From Kutzneria viridogrisea (lineage in GTDB: Bacteria > Actinomycetota > Actinomycetes > Mycobacteriales > Pseudonocardiaceae): DNA of 64,000 nucleotides. The position numbers and the translations under genes are program-made. Under the pieces are notes generated by a model. That model saw only the letters and a list, made by a program, of their open reading frames with translations, was not told where the DNA came from and did no database searches. The DNA lies in the NCBI GenBank assembly GCA_014138725.1, contig JACJID010000002.1:758001-822000 (forward strand), read 5' to 3'. Every line of letters begins with the position of its first letter. Position 1 is the stretch's first letter. Below, piece after piece: positions 5,017-60,022 of the stretch.

Positions 5017-5628
5017 TCACCGGCACCGAGCCTGGACGAGCAGCACGGCGGCGAGTTCGGCCGAGGAGTAGGTGGCGGCCAGCCGCTGGTAGCTCTCCGC
5101 CGACAGCGAGGCGAGCAGCACCTCGGCTCGCAGCCCCGGCTGTTCCAGCTTCAACTCCTCGAACAGGTGCACCAGGTGCTGGCGCCAGAACTGGTACGAG
5201 CCGGTGCCGAAGCGCGCGCCGACCGAGTTGCGCTCGGAGATCAGCACCAGGTCCGCGTTGACGTCCAGGAACGCGCAGTAGGCGCGAATGAACGCCTGGA
5301 GCCGCATGGTCGGCCCCGCGCCCGGCCCCAGCGGCGGGCGTCCCGACAGGATCTCGGACTGCAGGCGGCGCTCCTGCTCGTCCAGCAGTGCGATCGCCAG
5401 GCCGCCCTTGTCCCCGAAGCGGCGGTACAGGGTGCCCTTGCCGACCCCGGCCGCTGCGGCGATGTCGTCCATCGAGACGTTCGCCTCGCCCCGCTCGGTG
5501 AACAGCCGCCGGGCAGCTGCCAGCACTTTGCGGCGGTTCCGGGCCGCGTCGGCCCGCTCGGTCACCTCAGGCTGCCCCACCAGTGGCAGCTCCATCCCGG
5601 GTCGCGGCATATCCGGACTGTAGTCCAC
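5017..5628 (-). CDS. TetR/AcrR-family transcriptional regulator
   Basis: 203 residues from GTG 5628. An ATG at 5610 (197 residues) is equally plausible, because a 14-bp palindrome (5614-5627) would then lie immediately upstream of the start as an autoregulatory operator. The HTH is at residues 30-75 (RRLFTERGEANVSMDDIAAA, GVGKGTLYRRFGDK). The rest is an all-helical ligand domain of the type with LxAFIRAYCAFLD. It faces a 700-bp region containing at least three palindromes close to its promoter and a long periodic array further on, leading to an F420-dependent oxidoreductase operon. Regulation of that divergent operon is inferred. The C-terminus (AAVLLVQARCR) is ordinary. Confidence 0.9.
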   Translation of the reverse strand: MDYSPDMPRPGMELPLVGQPEVTERADAARNRRKVLAAARRLFTERGEANVSMDDIAAAAGVGKGTLYRRFGDKGGLAIALLDEQERRLQSEILSGRPPLGPGAGPTMRLQAFIRAYCAFLDVNADLVLISERNSVGARFGTGSYQFWRQHLVHLFEELKLEQPGLRAEVLLASLSAESYQRLAATYSSAELAAVLLVQARCR

Positions 5629-5697
5629 CTACCCCCGCGACAAAGCGGACCGCAGTCCGCTAAGCTCGGCGACATGAGCAAATCGGACCACGGTCCG
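5614..5697. promoter_or_regulatory. Candidate TetR operators: three palindromes at the tetR promoter
   Basis: Three copies of a dyad GGAC-N4-6-GTCC lie at the 5' end of the TetR gene: 5614-5627 (CGGACTGTAGTCCA), 5645-5660 (GCGGACCGCAGTCCGC, perfect 6-bp arms) and 5684-5697 (CGGACCACGGTCCG). Location at the regulator start plus dyad symmetry suggest TetR binding. This is inference. The same motif then recurs 13 times in the periodic array downstream. Confidence 0.55.
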
Positions 5698-5732
5698 CTT
5701 ATGGTGCGACCGGGTCCCACCCGACCTGTCAT

Positions 5733-5775
5733 GAAGGTGCCGTTCAGGACATTGAACGTCCCAAAGGGCACCTTC
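5733..5775. repeat. Dispersed hairpin element, GAAGGTGCC class
   Basis: Arms GAAGGTGCC (5733-5741) and GGCACCTTC (5767-5775) enclose an inner stem GTTCA/TGAAC. It is a degenerate relative of the perfect hairpins at 47671-47727 and 59962-60014, which share the core GAAAGTGCCGT. It lies between the TetR promoter and the palindrome array. Confidence 0.6.
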
Positions 5776-5832
5776 GCGGCAGTCAAGCCACACGGAGCCG
5801 ACCTTGAAACCCAGCCAGTGCCCGCCCCGGAT

Positions 5833-6304
5833 CGGATCACGGTCCGGATGTCGCCCACGATCGAGCGAAGCGGACTTCGGTCCGCACACAGACGGGGCGC
5901 AGACCAACCGGACTGCGGTCCGAACGCCGCTGGGCGGGCGCGGGCCAACTGGACCACGTTCCGAAAACGACCCAGGAGCGGGCCAACCCGACCACGGTCC
6001 TTAGACCGCTGGGCGCGCGGGCCAACCGGACCGCAGTCCGAAGACGGCTGGGGTGCGGCCACCTGGACCGCAGTCCGAACACCGTTGGGGGTGCGGATCA
6101 ACCGGACCGCGACCCAAAGACGGCCGGAGCCCGGGCAACTGGACCGCAGTCCGAAGACGGCTGGCCCCTGGGCCAACCGGACTTCGGTCCGAAGACAGCC
6201 GAGACCCGGGCAACCGGACCGCAGTCCGAACACAGGCGCACCCCGAGCCAACCGGACTTCGGTCCGGAACGTGCACCGTACAGACGAAAGCGGACTTCGG
6301 TCCG
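5833..6304. repeat. Tandem array: 13 copies of a 14-bp palindrome with a 38-bp period
   Basis: Copies of CGGACYDCGGTCCG-type dyads start at 5833, 5871, 5909, 5950, 5989, 6027, 6064, 6103, 6140, 6178, 6215, 6253 and 6291. Spacing is 37-41 bp, usually 38. The 24-bp spacers are also related (AAGACGGCTGG, then CGGGCCAAC), so the whole 38-bp unit was duplicated. Most copies are CGGACCGCAGTCCG or CGGACTTCGGTCCG. 5950, 5989 and 6103 have decayed arms. The last copy ends 20 bp before the start codon at 6324. No start codon with a ribosome site opens a convincing gene here. The dyad is the same as at the tetR start, so the array may bind that regulator. Confidence 0.85.
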
Positions 6305-6323
6305 ACGAGGGAGGAGGACGGGC

Positions 6324-6785
6324 ATGGCGGATCTGGACACAGTGCGGGAACTGGCCAGCCAGGAGCATTGGCTCGCAGTGCTGGTGACCACCAAGCGGAA
6401 CGGCGAGCCGGGCGTGTCGCTGGTCAACGCGGGAGTGCTGCCACACCCGGTGACGGGTGAGCCGGTGGTGGCCTTCGTGGCGAGGGGCCGCACGGCGAAG
6501 CTGACGAACCTGCGGGCGAATCCGCGGGCGACGTTGGTGTTCCGAGCAGGCTGGGAGTGGGTGGGCGTCACGGGCCCGGTGGAACTGGCGGGGCCGGACG
6601 ACCAGTTGCCGGGCACGGACCTGCCGGGGCTGCTCCGGGACGTCTACCACGCGGCGGGCGGCAGGCACTCGGACCTGGCCGCCTACGACCGCGAGATGGT
6701 CGCCGACCGACGGACCGCCGTCCTGCTGCGTCCGGTCAAGTTCTCCAGCAACCCACCCGGCACGGATCACGAGGAGCACGCATGA
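6324..6785 (+). CDS. PPOX-class F420-dependent oxidoreductase (Rv1155-like)
   Basis: 153 residues from ATG 6324, with GGGAGGAGG upstream at 6308-6316. The split beta-barrel flavin-type fold is indicated by WLAVLVTTKRNGEPGVSLVN at residues 16-35 and by RGRTAKLTNLRANPRATLVF in the cofactor-phosphate-contacting strand around residues 55-75. Small TIGR03618-type proteins like this bind F420 rather than FMN. The substrate is unknown. It is the first gene of a tight operon: its stop overlaps the DsbA-like start (ATGA), which in turn overlaps the metallo-hydrolase. It lies just downstream of the palindrome array and is probably controlled by the TetR protein. A classical PNP oxidase is unlikely at this length. 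Confidence 0.85.
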   Translation: MADLDTVRELASQEHWLAVLVTTKRNGEPGVSLVNAGVLPHPVTGEPVVAFVARGRTAKLTNLRANPRATLVFRAGWEWVGVTGPVELAGPDDQLPGTDLPGLLRDVYHAAGGRHSDLAAYDREMVADRRTAVLLRPVKFSSNPPGTDHEEHA

Positions 6786-7450
6786 GCAGGCCAGTCGTCA
6801 CACCGGGCACCATCCAGGTCTGGTCGGACCTGTTGTGCCCCTTCGCCTACGTGGCACTGCACCGGCTCGCCGCGGCGCGGGACCGCCTCGGGCTCACCGA
6901 ACGGGTGCGGCTGGACCACCACACGTTCGCGCTGGAGTTGTTCAACGGCCCGCACTCCCGGCCGGGCACGGACACGGAGGCGGTGGGCCTGGGCCAGATC
7001 GAGCCGGGTGCGGGCTTCCGGGTGTGGACAGCGCCGGAGTGGACGTATCCCTCGACGGTGTTGTTGGCGGCGGAGGCGGTGCACGCGGCGAAGGCGCAGG
7101 GGCTCGGCGCGTCGGAGGACCTGGACCTGGCGCTGCGCCGGGCGTTCTGGACGCGGTCCCGGTCGATCGGCCACCGCGAGGTGATCCTTGACGTGGCGCG
7201 GGAAACCGGCACGGTGGACGTGGCGGAGCTGGCCGCGGCGCTGGACTCGGGGACCAGCCGCGCCGCGGTGATGGCGGACCACGAGGTGGCCGGGTCCGAG
7301 GTGGTGCAGGGCAGTCCGCACCTGTTCCTCGCGGACGGCACGGATCTGCACAACCCCGGCATCACCGTGCACTGGGAAGGCCCGTGGGCGGCCGGTTTCC
7401 CGGTGGTGGACAAGGATGATCGGAGCTGGCTGACCGAGGTGCTGGGGTGA
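6782..7450 (+). CDS. DsbA-family (thioredoxin-fold) oxidoreductase/isomerase, FrnE-like
   Basis: 222 residues starting at ATG 6782, overlapping the previous stop by 4 bp. The N-terminus IQVWSDLLCPFAYVAL is the beta-alpha motif of DsbA/2-hydroxychromene-2-carboxylate isomerase folds, where CPFAY replaces CxxC, leaving one cysteine. The helical insertion includes WTYPSTVLLAAEAVHAAKAQ, and the C-terminal cis-Pro region is VVQGSPHLFLADG (residues 178-190). No signal peptide is present, so it is cytoplasmic. With a single active-site Cys it is more likely a glutathione/mycothiol-type transferase, isomerase or reductase than a disulfide oxidase. Co-translation with an F420 enzyme and a glyoxalase-II-like hydrolase suggests a small detoxification pathway, which is inferred. 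Confidence 0.85.
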   Translation: MSRPVVTPGTIQVWSDLLCPFAYVALHRLAAARDRLGLTERVRLDHHTFALELFNGPHSRPGTDTEAVGLGQIEPGAGFRVWTAPEWTYPSTVLLAAEAVHAAKAQGLGASEDLDLALRRAFWTRSRSIGHREVILDVARETGTVDVAELAAALDSGTSRAAVMADHEVAGSEVVQGSPHLFLADGTDLHNPGITVHWEGPWAAGFPVVDKDDRSWLTEVLG

Positions 7451-8121
7451 GGATCGACCGGGTGGCGGTGGGGCCGCTGCACACCAACTGCTGGGTGCTG
7501 GCCGACAGCGGGCAGGCGCTGGTGCTGGATCCGGGCGACGAGCCGGAGGCGGTGCGGGCGGCGGTCGAGGGCCTGGAGGTGATCGGCGTGGCGCTCACCC
7601 ACGCGCACGCCGATCACGTGCTGGCGCTGGAAGTCCTGGACGCACCGGTGCTGGGCCACCCGGCGGAACAGGCCGTCTGGCGTCACGAACTGGCGCACCT
7701 GGCTCAGCACGGGTACTTCGACGCGGGCACCGCGACCGAGGAGCTGCTAACAGCGGGAACGCCACTGGCGCCAGTGCCGGAAGTCCCTTTGTGGCAGGGC
7801 GAGTTCGACCGGGTACTCGGCGAGGGCGACCGGATCACCTTGGGGAGCCAGGAAGTCCGGGTGCTGCACACACCGGGGCACACACCGGGCGGACTGAGTT
7901 ACGCGGTACCGGGCCACTTGTTCACCGGGGACACGCTCTTTCCCGGTGGCCCGGGGCTGACCGGCTGGCCGCTGTCGGACTTCGACACGATCATCGGCTC
8001 GGTGCGCCGACTGCTCAGGGAATTCCCCGGCGACACACTGGTCCATCCGGGTCATGGCGCGAACACCACGATCGGGCAAGAACTCCCACACCTGGAGCAA
8101 TGGCGGCAACGCGGCTGGTGA
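7447..8121 (+). CDS. Metallo-beta-lactamase-fold hydrolase (glyoxalase II-like)
   Basis: 224 residues. GTG 7447 overlaps the preceding stop (GTGA). Zinc ligands are all visible: THAHADH (residues 55-61), HTPGHTPGG (about 139-147), FTGDTLFPGG (about 158-167) and VHPGHGANT near residue 197. This matches the GloB/YcbL group of hydrolases that cleave thioesters of glutathione or other low-molecular-weight thiols. In an actinomycete the thiol would probably be mycothiol, by inference. It ends the operon, with 94 bp to the next gene. The short length (no C-terminal glyoxalase II helical domain) favours the YcbL-like single-domain type. Confidence 0.92.
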   Translation: MRIDRVAVGPLHTNCWVLADSGQALVLDPGDEPEAVRAAVEGLEVIGVALTHAHADHVLALEVLDAPVLGHPAEQAVWRHELAHLAQHGYFDAGTATEELLTAGTPLAPVPEVPLWQGEFDRVLGEGDRITLGSQEVRVLHTPGHTPGGLSYAVPGHLFTGDTLFPGGPGLTGWPLSDFDTIIGSVRRLLREFPGDTLVHPGHGANTTIGQELPHLEQWRQRGW

Positions 8122-8215: not shown

Positions 8216-8749
8216 GTGGTCGAGCTGACGGTGGCGGCGGTGGCCGTCACGGTGGTGAACGAGGGGATCAAGTTCCTCTACAACCAGGTCACCGAGGCGG
8301 TGCGGCGCTGGCGTGAGCGCGCGCAGGAGGCCCCGCCGCAGATCGAGCCGCCCGAGGAGGTCTTCGAACCGGGCCTTGCCGGTGCGCGGATCGACCCGGC
8401 CGCGCTGCCCCGGCACGAGCAGCGGGTGGACGAGCTCATCGCCCAGTTGGCTCCCTATGCCTTGGCGGGCAGGGAGATCACCGCTGCCGACCCCGGCGCG
8501 CTGGAACTCGCCGACGCGCTGCGGGTGCTGGTGGAGGAGCTGACCGGGCGCCGCATCACCTTCCGGGGAGAACGACGCGAGGGCGAGGTGCGGCTGCACG
8601 GGATCGCCGCGGCCGACCACGTGGACGGGGCGCTGCGCGGGGTGCGGGTGGCGAAGGTGCGCGGCGGCACGGTACTGGGCGAGGCGCGGGCGGGCCGAGT
8701 GGGCGCCACGGGCAGCGTTGCCGGAGTGGAGGCCAACGAGGTCGGATGA
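8216..8749 (+). CDS. Small protein coupled to the NACHT-WD40 gene, unknown function
   Basis: 177 residues from GTG 8216, placed 7 bases after GGGAGG (8204-8209). TTG 8213 is an alternative. Residues 1-35 form a hydrophobic-to-amphipathic helix (ELTVAAVAVTVVNEGIKFLY) that may anchor or oligomerise. A Pro/Glu-rich linker follows, then a helical stretch rich in Leu/Glu (residues 65-110). The C-terminus is a run of short beta-like segments rich in Gly and Val (VRVAKVRGGTVLGEARAGRV). Its stop overlaps the start of the NACHT-WD40 gene (ATGA at 8746), so the two are made together. I recognise no catalytic motif. By analogy with actinobacterial NLR-like loci it may be a partner or effector-adaptor of the ATPase, which is inference only. 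Confidence 0.75.
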   Translation: MVELTVAAVAVTVVNEGIKFLYNQVTEAVRRWRERAQEAPPQIEPPEEVFEPGLAGARIDPAALPRHEQRVDELIAQLAPYALAGREITAADPGALELADALRVLVEELTGRRITFRGERREGEVRLHGIAAADHVDGALRGVRVAKVRGGTVLGEARAGRVGATGSVAGVEANEVG

Positions 8750-11700
8750 CCCGCCACGCCATCCTGCGGTGGACGGCGTTGCCCGAGATCAGTGACTGGT
8801 TCACGGGCACCGCGCGCTTCATGCTGGTGACCGGGGGCATGGGCACCGGCAAGACAACGCTCACCAAGCAGCTCCCGGGATACCTCGCACCACAGTCCTG
8901 GGCGGTGCACCACTGCCGGTCCGACGACGCCACGACGATCTCGGTCAACGGGCTGCTCAGCTCGTGGAGCACCCAACTGCTGCACCACCTCAAGCGGTAC
9001 GACCGGCACCTGGCCCAGCAGTGGCGCACGACCATCCAGGGCACGGCGCAGGGCCCTGGTTCAGTAGGTGTGCGCATCACGAACCTGAACCTGCACGTGG
9101 ACGAGCCGCCCGCGGACGTGCTGACGCGGGTGATCGCCGCGCCGCTGCGGGAGCTGGCCCGGCGCAACCGGCTGCCCGTCGTGCTGCTCGTCGTCGACGG
9201 GGTGGAGGAGGCCACCGACGCGGACGGCCGCAACCGGGTCTTCGACCTGCTGGCAAGCCTTTCCGGGGTGTCGCTGCCGCCCGAGGTCCGGTTCCTGGTG
9301 ACCTCGCGGCCGGATCCGGCCCTGGCCCAGGCGCTGTCCGGGGCACACCACCTGGACCTGGACGGGGTCAGCGAGCAGGACGTGGTCAACTACGTGGTGG
9401 CCCGCGCGGCGAACGACCCCGCGCTGGTGGGCAGGTCCCGGGTCCCCGGTGGGCTGCCCAGGTTCGCGCGCCTGCTCACCGAGCACGTGAAGGGCAACTT
9501 CCTCGTGGCGGCAAGGGTTCTGGACGACCTCGCGGGCACGCGCGAGCCGTACACCGAGTCCTCGCTGCGGGCGACGCCGAGCACGATGCCCCAGTTGTTC
9601 CGGGAACGGCTGCGACACCTGTTCGACTACCTGGACGAGCGGCAGCGGGACCTGTTGGGGCTGTTGGCGGTGGCCAGGGCCCCGCTGCGTGCGGAGGAGA
9701 TCGCCGATCTGCTGGGGGCCACCGACGGCTGGGTCCGCCGGTGCCTCACCAGGTTGCGGCCGGTGCTCGGCCTGGACAGTGGCCGCTACCGGCTGTTCCA
9801 CCGCTGCCTCGCGGACTTCCTGCACGACAGCGAGGAGAACCAGCTGTGGTGGCGCAGCGCGTCCGAGGACAACCTGGCACTGGCAAACAGGATAAGCGCG
9901 CAGTGGGCGCGGGACTGGGCGGCCTGCGATCACCCGTACGCCCTGAACCACGTGGTGGCCCACTTCACCAGCGCGATCACCGGACTGCGCGGCGGCAGGC
10001 GGCAGGACGCGCAACGCCAGCTCACCGAGATCCTGCTCGACTCCGGCTTCCTGCAGGCAAGAACCACGAGCTCGGGCGTTGACGGCCTCTACGCGGACCT
10101 GGGCTACGCGCAGTCGGTCCTGCCGGGGCCCGAGGTCGGCGCGCTGGCCAGATCCCTGCTGCGACAGGCACACCACCTCAGGAAGCACCCCGAACTCGTT
10201 GCGCGCCAACTGCACCACGACGCGGTGCTCACCGGTGACGCCGCACTGGCCGGGCGGCTCGACCCGCCTGGACTGCGGCTGGCGTGGGCCAGTTCCCCCG
10301 CGGCCGTCCCGGCGCTGCACACCCTGTCCGGGCACAGCGGTGCGATCACCGCCGTGGCGGCGGGCAGTCACGTCGTGACCGGCTCGGTGGACGGCACGGT
10401 CCGGGTCTGGGACGGCGAGACCGGTGCGCTGCGGCACGTCCTGTCCGGGCACGAGGGACCGATCAGCTCCGTGGTGCTGGCCGACCGGGTGCTCTCCGGC
10501 TCGGCGGACGGCACGGTGCGCGCGTGGGACCTGCGCACCGGGGAGCTGGAACTGGTGGTGGAGGGCCACGAGGGGCCGGTGACCGGGGTCGCGGTGGCCG
10601 GGACGCGCATCGTCAGCGCCTCCTGGGACCGGACCGTCCGGGTGTGGGACGGGCGGACCGGTGCCCCGCTGCGCGTGCTGCGCGGGCACCAGGGGCAGGT
10701 GGACGCCCTCGCCGTGGCCGACCAGACCGCGGTGACGGCGGGTGGTGACGGCACGATCAGGCTGTGGCACCTCAACTCCGGCAGGCAGCTGCACTCGCAC
10801 ACCGGGCAGAGCGCGCAGATCAGGTTGCTCGCGGCCTCGGCGACGCGCGTGGTGCTCGGGGCGGGCGACGGCACGGTGTGCGTGATCGACCCGCGCTCCG
10901 GGCTGGTGACCGGCACCCTGGACGGCAAGGCGGGCCGGGTGACGGCGATGTCCTTGGCGGGCAAGCTGATCACCGGCACCTCCGACGGCACGGTCCGGGT
11001 GTGGGACCTGGACACCGGTCAGAGCACGGCGCGGCTGCACACCGGCGGCCGGGTCACCGCGGTGGCGCTGAGCGCGGACGGGCACAGCGCGGTCACCGCC
11101 GCCGAGGACGGCACGGCGCGGGTGTGGAACCTCAGCGCCATGGGCGAGTCCACAGCGGACAGACACAGTGGACAGATCAACGCGGTGGCGGTGACCGGAC
11201 AGGGCAGGGCGATCACGGCCTCGGACGACAAGTCGGTGCGGATCTGGGACACGCGCACCGGGGAGCTGTTGAACACGCTGGAGGAGCACCAGGACTGGGT
11301 GACCTCCGTGGCGGTCAGCACGGACGGCGACCGGGCGGCAACCGCTTCCTACGACCGCACGGCACGGGTGTGGGACGTGCGGACCGGCGAGCAGTTGCAC
11401 GAGCTGGTCGGGCACGAGGACCAGCTCACCGCGGTGGCGCTGACCCGGGACGGGACCAAGGCCGTGACCGCCTCCTGGGACCGCACGGCGCGGGTGTGGG
11501 ACCTGCACACGGGCAATCCACTGTGGACACTGCGCGGGCACCTGGACTGGATCACGGCGGTGGCGGTGACGCCCGGCGGGGACCGGACGGTGACGGTGTC
11601 CGACGACGGGGCGGCCTGCGTGTGGGACCTGCGCACCGGCAGCCTGTACGTGACGCTCAGCGGCCACTGGGACAAGGTGGCGGCCGTCGCGGTGACCGAC

Positions 11701-12189
11701 GCGCTGGCTGTCACCGGGTCATGGGACGCCACGGCCCGGGTGTGGAGCGTGGAAGGCGGGCACCTGGTGCACGTGCTCGCCGGGCACCAGGGCGCGGTGA
11801 CCTGCGTTGCCGTGGACCCGAGCGGGGCGCGGGCGGCGACCGGCTCGGCGGACGGCACGGCGGCGCTGTGGGACCTGGCCAGCGGTCGGTGCCTGTTCAC
11901 CACGGAGAAGCACGACCGCAGGATCACGGCGGTCGCTGTAACGCCAGACGGCGCGGAAGTCGTTACAGCGTCGGAGGACCAGACGATCCGGGTGTCCGGA
12001 CCGGACCGTTCACTGCTGGTCGGTCAGCCCGAGCCGGCGACCTGCCTGGCACTGACCGAGACCGGTTTTGTGGTCGGCACCTCGGCGGGCGGCGTGCTGG
12101 GCTACGTCAACACCACCCCGTCAGCACCACCGCCCCAGCCCGGTGAGGGTGCGGCGGGTGCCGTCCGCGGCGGTGACCCAGCCCGCTGA
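8746..12189 (+). CDS. NACHT/STAND-type ATPase with 14 WD40 repeats
   Basis: 1147 residues. Residues 1-25 precede a Walker A GGMGTGKTT (about 29-38). Walker B is VVLLVVDGVEEA (about 144-155) and a sensor-like FLVTSRPDP follows (about 183-191). A winged-helix/helical arm occupies 250-510 (LLGLLAVARAPLRAEEIADL). From about 525 to 1125 I count 14 WD40 repeats, most ending in VRVWD or ARVWD and spaced 39-42 residues, enough for two seven-bladed propellers. STAND proteins of this build act as ligand-gated switches, and related actinobacterial loci are proposed in anti-phage or self/non-self conflict. No effector domain is fused at the N-terminus, so signalling presumably goes through the coupled 177-residue protein. 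The 3' end overlaps the convergent gene by 69 bp. Confidence 0.93.
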   Translation: MTRHAILRWTALPEISDWFTGTARFMLVTGGMGTGKTTLTKQLPGYLAPQSWAVHHCRSDDATTISVNGLLSSWSTQLLHHLKRYDRHLAQQWRTTIQGTAQGPGSVGVRITNLNLHVDEPPADVLTRVIAAPLRELARRNRLPVVLLVVDGVEEATDADGRNRVFDLLASLSGVSLPPEVRFLVTSRPDPALAQALSGAHHLDLDGVSEQDVVNYVVARAANDPALVGRSRVPGGLPRFARLLTEHVKGNFLVAARVLDDLAGTREPYTESSLRATPSTMPQLFRERLRHLFDYLDERQRDLLGLLAVARAPLRAEEIADLLGATDGWVRRCLTRLRPVLGLDSGRYRLFHRCLADFLHDSEENQLWWRSASEDNLALANRISAQWARDWAACDHPYALNHVVAHFTSAITGLRGGRRQDAQRQLTEILLDSGFLQARTTSSGVDGLYADLGYAQSVLPGPEVGALARSLLRQAHHLRKHPELVARQLHHDAVLTGDAALAGRLDPPGLRLAWASSPAAVPALHTLSGHSGAITAVAAGSHVVTGSVDGTVRVWDGETGALRHVLSGHEGPISSVVLADRVLSGSADGTVRAWDLRTGELELVVEGHEGPVTGVAVAGTRIVSASWDRTVRVWDGRTGAPLRVLRGHQGQVDALAVADQTAVTAGGDGTIRLWHLNSGRQLHSHTGQSAQIRLLAASATRVVLGAGDGTVCVIDPRSGLVTGTLDGKAGRVTAMSLAGKLITGTSDGTVRVWDLDTGQSTARLHTGGRVTAVALSADGHSAVTAAEDGTARVWNLSAMGESTADRHSGQINAVAVTGQGRAITASDDKSVRIWDTRTGELLNTLEEHQDWVTSVAVSTDGDRAATASYDRTARVWDVRTGEQLHELVGHEDQLTAVALTRDGTKAVTASWDRTARVWDLHTGNPLWTLRGHLDWITAVAVTPGGDRTVTVSDDGAACVWDLRTGSLYVTLSGHWDKVAAVAVTDALAVTGSWDATARVWSVEGGHLVHVLAGHQGAVTCVAVDPSGARAATGSADGTAALWDLASGRCLFTTEKHDRRITAVAVTPDGAEVVTASEDQTIRVSGPDRSLLVGQPEPATCLALTETGFVVGTSAGGVLGYVNTTPSAPPPQPGEGAAGAVRGGDPAR

Positions 12190-27342: not shown

Positions 27343-27352
27343 CCCCCAACCC

Positions 27353-27990
27353 GCGAGTCCCGGCCCGGGGCACGCGAGTCCCGGCCATCGGCTCGCGAGT
27401 CCCGGTCAGCCGCAGGCTCCCGGCCTGGGGCCCGCGAGTCCCGGTCAGGCGCAGGCTCCCGGCCAGGGGCCCACGAGTCCCGCGCTGGGGCGCACGAGTC
27501 CCGGTCCGGGACACGCGAGTCCCGGCCAAGGGCAAGCGAGTCCCGGCCAGGCGCAGGCTCCCGGCCAGGGGCCCACGAGTCCTGCGCTGGGGCGCACGAG
27601 TTCCGCGCTGGGGCTCGCGAGTCCCGCCGAGCCGGGACGGGGTCGGTCGACCGCGCAGAAGTCCCGGTCTGGGGCAGGCGAGTCCCGGCGGCTACCGGCG
27701 CACGAGTCCCGCTTTGAGGCAGGCGAGTCCCGGCCAGGCGCACGCGAGTCCGGGTACGGGACAGGCGAGTCCCGCTCTGAGGCGCATGAGCCCCGGGCGG
27801 CCGCACACGAGTCCCGCTCTGGAGCAGGCGAGTCCCGCCGAGCCGGGACGGGGTCGGTCGACCGCGCACGAGTCCCGGCCTGGGGCAGGCGAGTCCGGGC
27901 GGCTACCGGCGCACTAGTCCCGCTTTGAGGCAGGCGAGTCCCGCTCAGCCGCACGCTAGTCCCGGCCAGGGGCAGGCGAGTCCCGGCGGG
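27353..27990. repeat. 21-bp tandem repeat array (GCGAGTCCCGG family), about 29 units
   Basis: The whole space between two convergent genes is filled by units of about 21 bp with the core RCGAGTCCCGS followed by a GC-rich variable half. Early units start at 27353, 27374 and 27395. Some cores are decayed (AGGCTCCCGG, CACTAGTCC). A 116-bp block (27617-27732) is repeated at 27828-27943 with five differences. The last unit ends at the TAG stop of the minus-strand SGNH gene. Open frames through the array are low-complexity and not credible proteins. The same family recurs at 41096-41273. Confidence 0.92.
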
Positions 27991-41095: not shown

Positions 41096-41273
41096 CGGGA
41101 CTCGCGCAACTGTGGGCGGGACTCGCGCTCCCCAGGGCGGGACTCGCGCGCTGGAGAGCGGGACTCGCGGGTGGGGGCGGCTTGTCGCGGGCGAGCACCG
41201 GCGAGTCCCGCCCAGCCGTCGGCGAGTCCCGCTCTGGCGCGGGCCAGTCCCGCTCACCCGTGGGCGAGTCCCG
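41096..41273. repeat. Symmetrical 21-bp repeat array: four direct plus four inverted GAGTCCCG units
   Basis: CGGGACTCGCG cores start at 41096, 41117, 41138 and 41158/9. The complementary GCGAGTCCCG cores start at 41201, 41222, 41243 (decayed, GCCAGTCCCG) and 41264. Period is 21 bp on both sides around a centre near 41184, so the array is one large inverted repeat. The family is the same as the 27353-27990 array. The final unit abuts the TAG stop of the APH-type gene. Confidence 0.9.
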
Positions 41274-56401: not shown

Positions 56402-56502
56402 CCGGGCGGGCGAGGGGGCGGGACGAAACAACTCCACAGCGGACCAACCGGCCACCGAACCGGCGCGGGACAACGGAAGCGGCGCCCCGCCTCCCGTCCA
56501 AA

Positions 56503-56760
56503 GCCATCAGCAAAAGCAACCAACGGCTCCACCGGCAGCGGACACCGAACGACGAGAACCGCCTCATCGAGGCCATCAGCAACGGCAACCAACCACCCAA
56601 CCGGCAGCCAGGCAACAAAACCGAGCCCCACCCCCTGTCCAAAGCCATCAGTAAAAGCAACCAACGACCCAACCGGCAGCGGACACCAAAACCCGAGAAC
56701 CACCTCACCGAGGCCATCAGTAAAAGCGCCCCGTCACCCAACCGGCGGCAGGCCATCCAG
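56503..56760. repeat. Tandem repeat, four units of 69-72 bp, phased in codons
   Basis: GCCATCAG recurs at 56503, 56572, 56644 and 56713, spacing 69, 72 and 69 bp. Units resemble GCCATCAGYAAAAGCAACCA followed by an ACCGGCAGCGGACACC-type block. In one plus-strand frame they read KAISKSNQRLHRQRTPNDEN, EAISNGNQPPNRQ, KAISKSNQRPNRQRTPKPEN and EAISKSAPSPNRR. All spacings are multiples of three, as for a protein repeat, but no credible start precedes them and the HNH gene upstream is in another frame. 56402-56502 and 56761-56889 contain nothing further that I recognise. Confidence 0.7.
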
Positions 56761-58456: not shown

Positions 58457-59959
58457 GTGAAGCAGGCACAACTCAAGCTCGACCCCGACTTCGCGATCGG
58501 CGAGGTGGACCGGCGGCTGTTCGGTTCCTTCGTGGAGCACATGGGCCGCTGCGTCTACACCGGCATCTACGAGCCGGGGCACCCCACCGCCGACCACGAG
58601 GGTTTCCGCGGGGACGTGCTCGACCTGGTCCGTGAACTGGGTGTGAGCGTGGTGCGCTACCCGGGGGGCAACTTCGTGTCCGGCTACCGCTGGGAGGACG
58701 GCACAGGCCCGCGCGAGGACCGGCCGACCCGGCTGGACCTGGCCTGGCGGTCCATCGAGACCAACGAGGTGGGCGTCAACGAGTTCGCGACCTGGGCCCG
58801 CCGGGCGGGGGTCAGCCCGATGATGGCGGTCAACCTGGGCACCAGGGGCGTGCGGGAGGCCGCCGACCTGGTGGAGTACTGCAACCACCCGGGCGGCACG
58901 TACTGGTCGGACCTGCGGGTCAAGCACGGGCAGGCCGAGCCGCACGCGATCTCGTTGTGGTGCCTGGGCAACGAGCTGGACGGCCCCTGGCAGACCGGGC
59001 ACAAGACGGCGCAGGAGTACGGGCGGCTCGCCGCCGAGGCGGCCAAGGCCATGCGGCAGGTGGACCCCGGCATCGAACTGGTGGCCTGCGGCAGTTCCAA
59101 CAGCGCCATGCCCACCTTCGGCGCGTGGGAGGCCACCGTGCTGGAGCACACCTACGACCACGTGGACTACGTGTCCCTGCACGCCTACTACGAGGAGTTC
59201 GACGGGGACCTGGACAGCTTCCTGGCCTGCGCGCAGGACATGGACCAGTTCATCGGCGCGGTCGTGGCCACCTGCGACCACGTCGGGGCGAAACTGCGGC
59301 GGCGCAAGAAGATCCGGCTGTCCTTCGACGAGTGGAACGTCTGGTACGCGCGGCGTTTCCCCGGCCACGAACACCTGGAGTCCCAGCATGCGCCCCGGCT
59401 GATCGAGGACAACTACCACGTGGCCGACGCGGTGGTCGTGGGCAGCCTGCTGATCACCCTGTTGCGGCACGCCGACCGCGTGTCGGTGGCCTGCCAGGCG
59501 CAGTTGGCCAACGTCATCGCGCCGATCCTGACCGAACCGGGCGGCGGGGTCTGCCGCCAGACGATCTTCTACCCGTTCGCGCAGGCCGCCCGCTTCGCCC
59601 GGGGCACGGTGCTGCGCGTGGAGCCCACCTCACCCCGGTACGACACGGCCCGGTTCGGGGAGGTGCCGTTGCTGAGCGCCGTGGCGACCCAGGACGGTGA
59701 GGAGGTGACGGTGTTCGCCGTGAACCGGTCGACCACGGAGTCGTTGGGGCTCACCGCGAACCTGCGCGCGGTGCCCGGGCACGAGGTGGTGGAGCACCTG
59801 GCGCTGGCCGAAGCCGACCACAGGCTGACCAACACCGTGGCCGAGCCCGACCGGGTGCGACCGCGCGTACTGGCCGGGGCCTCGGTCACCGGGGACGTGC
59901 TCACCGCCGAGCTGCCCGCCCTGTCCTGGAACGTGATCCGCCTGCGCCGCCGGGCCTAG
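58457..59959 (+). CDS. abfA: Intracellular alpha-L-arabinofuranosidase, GH51
   Basis: 500 residues, GTG 58457 after GAGGGAG. The GH51 barrel shows ADHEGFRGDVLDLVRELGVS, RYPGGNFVSGYRWEDGTGP, acid/base Glu in LWCLGNELDGPWQ (near 174) and the nucleophile Glu in LSFDEWNVWYARR (near 293), followed by HAPRLIEDNYHVADAVVVGS. A C-terminal beta-sandwich covers 390-500. No signal peptide, so it acts on imported arabino-oligosaccharides. No transporter is adjacent. Control by the divergent LacI protein is strongly suggested. Confidence 0.96.
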   Translation: MKQAQLKLDPDFAIGEVDRRLFGSFVEHMGRCVYTGIYEPGHPTADHEGFRGDVLDLVRELGVSVVRYPGGNFVSGYRWEDGTGPREDRPTRLDLAWRSIETNEVGVNEFATWARRAGVSPMMAVNLGTRGVREAADLVEYCNHPGGTYWSDLRVKHGQAEPHAISLWCLGNELDGPWQTGHKTAQEYGRLAAEAAKAMRQVDPGIELVACGSSNSAMPTFGAWEATVLEHTYDHVDYVSLHAYYEEFDGDLDSFLACAQDMDQFIGAVVATCDHVGAKLRRRKKIRLSFDEWNVWYARRFPGHEHLESQHAPRLIEDNYHVADAVVVGSLLITLLRHADRVSVACQAQLANVIAPILTEPGGGVCRQTIFYPFAQAARFARGTVLRVEPTSPRYDTARFGEVPLLSAVATQDGEEVTVFAVNRSTTESLGLTANLRAVPGHEVVEHLALAEADHRLTNTVAEPDRVRPRVLAGASVTGDVLTAELPALSWNVIRLRRRA

Positions 59960-59961
59960 GT

Positions 59962-60014
59962 GCCATGAAAGTGCCGTTCGTGGCGTCAGGTGCCAGGAAC
60001 GGCACTTTCATGGC
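59962..60014. repeat. Perfect hairpin, dispersed GAAAGTGCCGT family, between convergent genes
   Basis: GCCATGAAAGTGCCGTTC (59962-59979) pairs perfectly with GAACGGCACTTTCATGGC (59997-60014) around a 17-base loop. It fills the 63-bp space between the abfA stop and the tmsB stop, so it probably terminates both. The core is shared with 47671-47727. Confidence 0.9.
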
Positions 60015-60022
60015 GTTCTCGG

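Follow-up and report, generated by a model that had tools for sequence, protein, structure and literature searches.

Sixteen candidate TetR operators, thirteen of them in a periodic array, in the intergenic DNA separating tetR from a PPOX-DsbA-MBL operon of Kutzneria viridogrisea

What could sixteen copies of one short palindrome be doing between a tetR gene and the operon beside it? This question is raised by 713 bp of intergenic DNA located in what is from now on referred to as the window, the whole stretch of 64,000 nucleotides from the Kutzneria viridogrisea genome (10.25 Mb in 11 contigs) that was analysed. The dyads are of the form CGGACYnnRGTCCG and lie in DNA of high GC content (72% for the window), with a TetR-family gene on one side and a PPOX-DsbA-MBL operon on the other (Table 1). 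We hypothesize that they represent an expanded operator array of the adjacent TetR which tightens repression, mainly as a barrier to elongating RNA polymerase, and assign this reading as a whole a probability of roughly 0.6.

Successive dyad starts are separated by 32, 38, 149, 38, 38, 41, 38, 39, 37, 39, 37, 38, 37, 38 and 38 bp. Both 5-bp arms are perfect in 9/16 dyads and at least 9/10 arm bases match in 13/16. Dinucleotide shuffles of positions 5600-6320 (n = 500) yielded a mean of 0.15 sites with at least 9/10 arm bases and a maximum of 2. In the entire 64-kb window, 18 sites reach that level, 13 of which are found in the 5614-6304 region together with all perfect sites (9/9). The weak members of the array are those at 5950 and 5988, matching 8/10 arm bases, and the one at 6103, matching 7/10. 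As shuffles yield 9.9 matches at the 7/10 level, the dyad at 6103 can be recognised solely via its place in the array. The sixteen copies, thirteen of them with a period near 38 bp, had been noted in a preliminary description of this DNA, and starts, steps and shuffle control all bear this out; its further statement that the tetR-side dyads and the array follow one common consensus holds as well. The consensus it proposed, CGGACYDCGGTCCG, is too narrow: 4 of the 13 array copies have CGCA as their centre, which makes CGGACYnnRGTCCG the better choice. Open frames of 405-406 aa cross the array on both strands. A coding array was rejected based on codon-position GC, which is flat (0.66/0.67/0.71) compared with 0.75/0.50/0.88 in the PPOX gene.

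The product of the regulatory gene (5017-5610) contains a TetR_N domain (PF00440, E = 7.6e-17, 61.3 bits against a cut-off of 24). Translation had initially been placed at GTG 5628; a leaderless start at ATG 5610 is the more likely of the two. Because the likely tetR start is ATG 5610, the first dyad would be promoter DNA. On the + strand between 5600 and 6330, the predicted operon promoter contains the sole TANNNT with at least 4/6 matches to TTGACA at a distance of 16-19 nt. Its -35 element, GCGACA, is weak with two mismatches to TTGACA, and a stricter consensus promoter scan of 5580-6340 found none. The putative start of the PPOX transcript would lie at this predicted promoter, from which about 650 bp of DNA and 14 extra dyads extend to the PPOX gene. 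The PPOX, DsbA-like and MBL-fold genes form a run of three overlapping genes on the + strand, and the same order recurs at four other loci (L095, L096, L098 and L105). The PPOX protein had been labelled an F420-oxidoreductase. It comes near TIGR03618 (F420-dependent PPOX oxidoreductase), but its score of 74.3 bits lies under the curated cut-off of 79.05; PF01243 is passed. Downstream of the operon, a 1147-aa protein with many WD40 repeats is encoded at 8746-12189, in which an N-terminal P-loop, GGMGTGKTTL, can be seen by eye.

Table 1 Features of the tetR-PPOX locus (window coordinates; dyad starts in the 14-mer register) and dyad positions at two related loci.
Feature	Position	Strand	Comment
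tetR, TetR-family regulator	5017..5610	-	197 aa from likely leaderless ATG 5610; ORF reaches GTG 5628
Dyad 1	5614..5627		on the - strand, likely tetR -10 TACAGT inside, 6 nt before ATG 5610; same geometry in relatives
Predicted divergent operon promoter	5637..5666	+	GCGACA-18-TAAGCT, dyad 2 in spacer; aligns with TTGACG-18-TANNNT of relatives
Dyad 2, CGGACCGCAGTCCG	5646..5659		in spacer of predicted operon promoter
Dyad 3	5684..5697		first extra dyad downstream of predicted divergent promoter
Dispersed palindromic element	5727..5783		inverted repeat I1; within the 149-bp step from dyad 3 to the array
Array, 13 dyads	5833..6304		37-41-bp steps; starts 5833, 5871, 5909, 5950, 5988, 6027, 6064, 6103, 6140, 6178, 6215, 6253, 6291
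PPOX-class oxidoreductase	6324..6785	+	presumed first gene of regulated operon; PF01243, E = 2.7e-7
DsbA-like thioredoxin-fold protein	6782..7450	+	PF01323, E = 2.2e-14; overlaps PPOX stop
Metallo-beta-lactamase-fold hydrolase	7447..8121	+	third gene; PF00753, E = 3.4e-21
Dyads of locus L060	1051, 1082, 1473, 2131, 2164		around tetR relative
Dyads of locus L056	1369, 1402, 2060, 2451, 2482		around tetR relative

Whether the dyad belongs to the neighbouring regulator was assessed by comparison with loci encoding related TetR proteins. The sample comprised 31 other loci whose TetR matches that of the window at 51% identity or more, namely 29 of 58 matches (the window's own aside) as well as L009 and L015. 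A strict dyad is present within 260 bp upstream of tetR at 25/31 of these loci, compared with 0/8 loci whose TetR match is below 51% identity, and 19 further distant TetR loci lack a strict dyad anywhere in the stretch examined (0/19). Four of the 19 (L016, L025, L026 and L034) carry pairs of a similar palindrome whose centre is one base longer, for example GGACCGGCGGTCC, which suggests that related sites serve the distant TetR relatives. Among the six misses in the closer group, GGACTACAGTCC is seen in L064 and L067 immediately within the aligned start, and at L058 two dyads precede an adjoining PPOX gene. Relatives of this TetR share at most 69% identity with it and have a similar HTH, and the helix GKGT[LV][YF]RRFGDK is mostly kept in those bearing the dyad. 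Other palindromes are found at L012, L013 and L018, where the helix reads GRATLYRRYPD or GVGTVYRRYPD. The link between helix and dyad has exceptions: the helix is kept at L052, L058 and L061, but the strict dyad is missing upstream of tetR, and L015, L019, L024 and L031 encode GKGT helices that differ further on.

The position of the dyad relative to predicted promoters is also conserved. In 13 of 17 dyad-bearing loci, chosen by us from the 31, a GGACTA...GTCC dyad with a -10-like TANNNT inside is followed within about 10 bases by an in-frame tetR start codon, and 11/17 have a divergent TTGACG-18-TANNNT promoter whose 18-bp spacer is taken up by a dyad. In the module usually seen in relatives, a first dyad covers the -10 of a leaderless tetR and a second is placed inside the divergent TTGACG-18-TANNNT promoter. 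The window appears to keep both parts as dyads 1 and 2, with 14 more dyads between the predicted promoter and PPOX. Relatives as a rule possess one or two dyads, with in-row counts of one to three. L056 and L060 each have five, distributed over some 1.1 kb around tetR as two flanking pairs and one single. Judged from their arrangement, this is a different way of adding candidate operators, and such gain is apparently not confined to the window's genome. Among the divergent genes in relatives are those for a flavodoxin-fold protein (L045, PF02525) and a rhodanese (L066, PF00581) as well as PPOX genes.

Starting from the target gene instead, 29 other PPOX loci (L091-L119) were inspected, 21 of them orthologs and 8 more distant (L112-L119). 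One or two dyads are located just upstream of 4/21 orthologs (L095, L096, L098 and L102), beginning 36-84 bases before the aligned PPOX start, and in three of these four the gene for the TetR relative is found in the same locus. Such a dyad is lacking upstream of the remaining 17/21 orthologs and of all eight more distant genes (8/8). Further, a class-wide search was carried out in which the TetR protein was not used as a query, with three copies of GGACNNNNGTCC sought in 394 class genomes. Nine genomes matched compared with six for the reversed control, and because of this small difference the loose triple pattern alone proves little. However, L127 and L128, from two distant genomes among these nine, have three dyads 33-35 bp apart beside a relative of this TetR at 53-57% identity. 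Apart from the window itself, the other matches are tandem repeats, tightly packed with units of 17-30 bp in four genomes (G335, G658, G594 and G492) and of ~43 bp in two (G494 and G407). The previously proposed assignment of the dyad to the adjacent TetR gains support from these comparisons (25/31 against 0/8 and 0/19, and L127 and L128). We conclude that the TetR encoded alongside very probably uses this dyad as its operator, and binding of the protein to it can be expected with considerable confidence.

The array is rare. In a sample of 297 family genomes, one per species, a strict dyad pair at 36-41-bp steps was found in one only (1/297), which is the window's own genome, and there at the array locus only; three dyads GGACYNNRGTCC in a row were likewise confined to this genome (1/297), with reversed controls at zero in both cases. 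The array DNA (5800-6323) has no second copy in its own genome among the 40 of 94 candidates scored, the next best match having E = 0.03 over 20 bases. The preliminary description had named one finding that would speak against it, namely arrays of this kind scattered over many unrelated places that have no tetR gene. These were sought in the own genome (the same 40 of 94 candidates) and, as dyad pair or triple, in the 297 family genomes, and were not found. A scan of viral_contigs for three strict dyads returned none, and a natural TetR operator array of comparable size did not turn up in searches of an open-access library. The strict dyad CGGACYNCRGTCCG occurs at 18 places in the genome, 9 at the locus and 9 elsewhere, all of the latter within ORFs that span 220 aa or more. 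If one mismatch is tolerated, the dyad motif is no commoner than its reversed control (348 against 351 matches). A wide regulon was rejected on the grounds that the nine outside strict sites all lie in such ORFs; these are weak evidence of coding in GC-rich DNA, so that a few distant targets may exist.

Built on the observed sites, their rarity, the conserved module and the better-kept arms described below, the proposed reading is as follows. All 16 dyads would be operators of the TetR encoded alongside. Dyads 1 and 2 would constitute the ancestral pair, one over the leaderless tetR -10 and one between the operon -35 and -10, and since they cover both promoters, TetR would repress itself as well as the operon. 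The remaining sites, dyad 3 together with the thirteen of the array, would be additions downstream of the promoter, within a leader that extends for about 650 nt up to PPOX. They would have arisen via tandem duplication of a 38-bp unit, with the arms kept while the spacers drifted. Provided that the promoter has been predicted correctly, transcription of the operon would start before dyad 3 and continue across the array. TetR dimers bound to the leader could then hinder elongating RNA polymerase and at the same time hold a local repressor reserve, so that the operon would open only once most TetR has bound ligand. As to the cooperative regulatory chromatin that the preliminary description also suggested, a step of 38 bp corresponds to about 3.6 helical turns, and neighbouring dimers would therefore not sit on the same face of the DNA. 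The elongation barrier itself is a possibility to which we give somewhat less than even odds. Still more tentatively, we suggest that a local TetR coats about 600 bp of its own target operon's leader as a graded elongation barrier, in which case operator copy number would be an evolvable dial of tightness. It should be noted that intergenic regions of TetR-family regulators range from 0 to 1123 bp with 79% at or below 200 bp according to PMC3511530, and that three of four TetR-family proteins with intergenic regions above 200 bp left the divergent gene unregulated there, with exceptions of up to 898 bp. The distance found here is 713 bp, which argues against regulation of the operon to that extent.

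Alternatively, the array may bind TetR away from promoters and only reduce the free repressor pool, with a shifted or buffered response as the result. In E. coli, titration of TetR by synthetic tetO arrays is described in PMC7686491, and most dyads (13 at 5833-6304) lie far from both predicted promoters. However, all sites are located in a single intergenic region beside the presumed regulator, and the apparent autorepression of tetR compensates for decoys in a toy model. This model describes an autorepressed TetR with arbitrary parameters and can rank ideas but proves nothing. With pure decoys, 16 sites in place of 2 gave a leak that was 1.2-2.0-fold higher, and the Hill slope stayed at 1.33-1.46; with sites acting as weak roadblocks (10-30% each), basal output fell and slopes of 1.57-2.19 were obtained. 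The original suggestion that the array acts as a sponge setting a sharp threshold was not supported, and as roadblocks and not decoys steepen the response in the toy model, we regard it as the weaker mechanism. Titration by the array as the whole explanation is unlikely in our view, if still worth considering.

A second possibility is neutral expansion: in a genome rich in repeats, slippage would have multiplied an operator unit of 38 bp, and the resulting array would by itself do nothing. The 13 units have a mean pairwise identity of 0.86 in the arms and 0.51 in the spacers (Mann-Whitney p = 6e-5, a guide value as columns are not independent), and arms were retained against spacer drift as previously claimed. 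In the 10 core units the difference is smaller, 0.84 against 0.61 (p = 0.011, likewise a guide as columns are not independent), and this weaker result favours neutrality. The spacers are still related, with CCAAC preceding the dyads and GAAGACGGC following them, which indicates that the array grew via duplication of the 38-bp unit; the arm test carries less weight as spacer likeness reflects shared descent. Core spacers of units two apart are slightly more alike than those of neighbours (0.68 against 0.63), and this would fit partial growth in 76-bp pairs. Occurrence in 1/297 genomes and the presence of many other tandem and dispersed repeats in the genome are also in line with a neutral origin. 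In contrast, steps of 37-41 bp are held throughout, which together with arm retention speaks against it. We find neutral expansion rather improbable and favour the expanded operator array.

Other repeats are present in the same DNA. The palindromic element at 5727-5783 is dispersed, with at least 115 matches in the own genome besides itself (both strands), all in query positions 5702-5791 (40 of 206 candidates scored). Some copies are arranged in rows with ~95-bp steps, e.g. at C2:518632-519109 and C3:863424-863861, and a short repeat at 59958-60016 resembles the element by eye. Elsewhere in the window, 27352-27987 and 41096-41273 are arrays of CGAGTCCCG with a 21-bp period (two DNA turns). 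Pairs of CGAGTCCCG match 338 times in forward and 352 times in reverse orientation in the own genome, with no match for the reversed control, and constitute a large dispersed array family. A tandem repeat with periods of ~70 and 141 bp is located at 56484-56753.

The array might also function as RNA, that is, as a row of hairpins in the transcript. The + strand loops read UUCG or UGCG in 5/13 copies, and the + strand folds at -264.6 kcal/mol compared with -226.3 kcal/mol for shuffles (z = -5.5). However, any row of DNA palindromes yields better folding, and dyads in relatives sit on the tetR -10 and between the divergent -35 and -10. Further, no Rfam family matches at gathering threshold, so that a known RNA family was also rejected. 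Taken together, an RNA function appears very unlikely. Other repeat classes, namely CRISPR, a REP-like dispersed repeat or a partition site, can practically be set aside despite the periodic palindromes and near-constant spacing, as neither Cas nor ParA was detected among eight neighbouring proteins scanned, the spacers are alike and the own genome showed no further copy of the array DNA among the 40 of 94 candidates scored. Specifically, a CRISPR array was rejected on account of spacers sharing 51-61% identity on average and three degenerate dyads, and a REP/MITE-like repeat on account of the single-copy array (5800-6323, 40 of 94 candidates scored), only 5727-5783 being dispersed.

Having preferred the expanded operator array over these readings, we can compare it with known systems. 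Dyads 1 and 2 look like an ordinary TetR/tetA-type layout, with a divergent tetR and target, palindromes at both predicted promoters and likely autorepression, as in the pairs described in PMC3511530. For TetR itself two operators are given there, with up to three palindromes in the cases listed (ActR, SCO7222), in contrast to the sixteen of this locus, of which all but two follow the predicted promoter of the target. Sixteen candidate operators in one region would exceed the cases met in the literature searches. Like the synthetic tetO arrays and DNA sponges described in PMC7686491, the locus presents multiple candidate operators of a single TetR-family protein, set apart by spacers; unlike them, it is natural and chromosomal, has diverged spacers and is located between a predicted promoter and its presumed target gene, not on a separate plasmid. 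By its sequence, the array looks like a natural version of laboratory-built operator arrays. Loci of the same TetR subfamily (L009 of Fodinicola feengrottensis, L042, L048, L102, L127, L128 and others) share dyad and promoter geometry, but their rows comprise one to three dyads, or there are five that lie scattered (L056 and L060).

Operator arrays and DNA sponges have so far been familiar as laboratory constructs. A natural array with one dedicated regulator, and with relatives that carry one, two or three copies, would allow asking what effect operator copy number has. If the array is indeed of this kind, it could further be asked whether evolution tunes the copy number of a bacterial switch. 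For work on actinomycetes, the locus offers a compact regulator together with a candidate operator that is well defined and a promoter geometry that is conserved.
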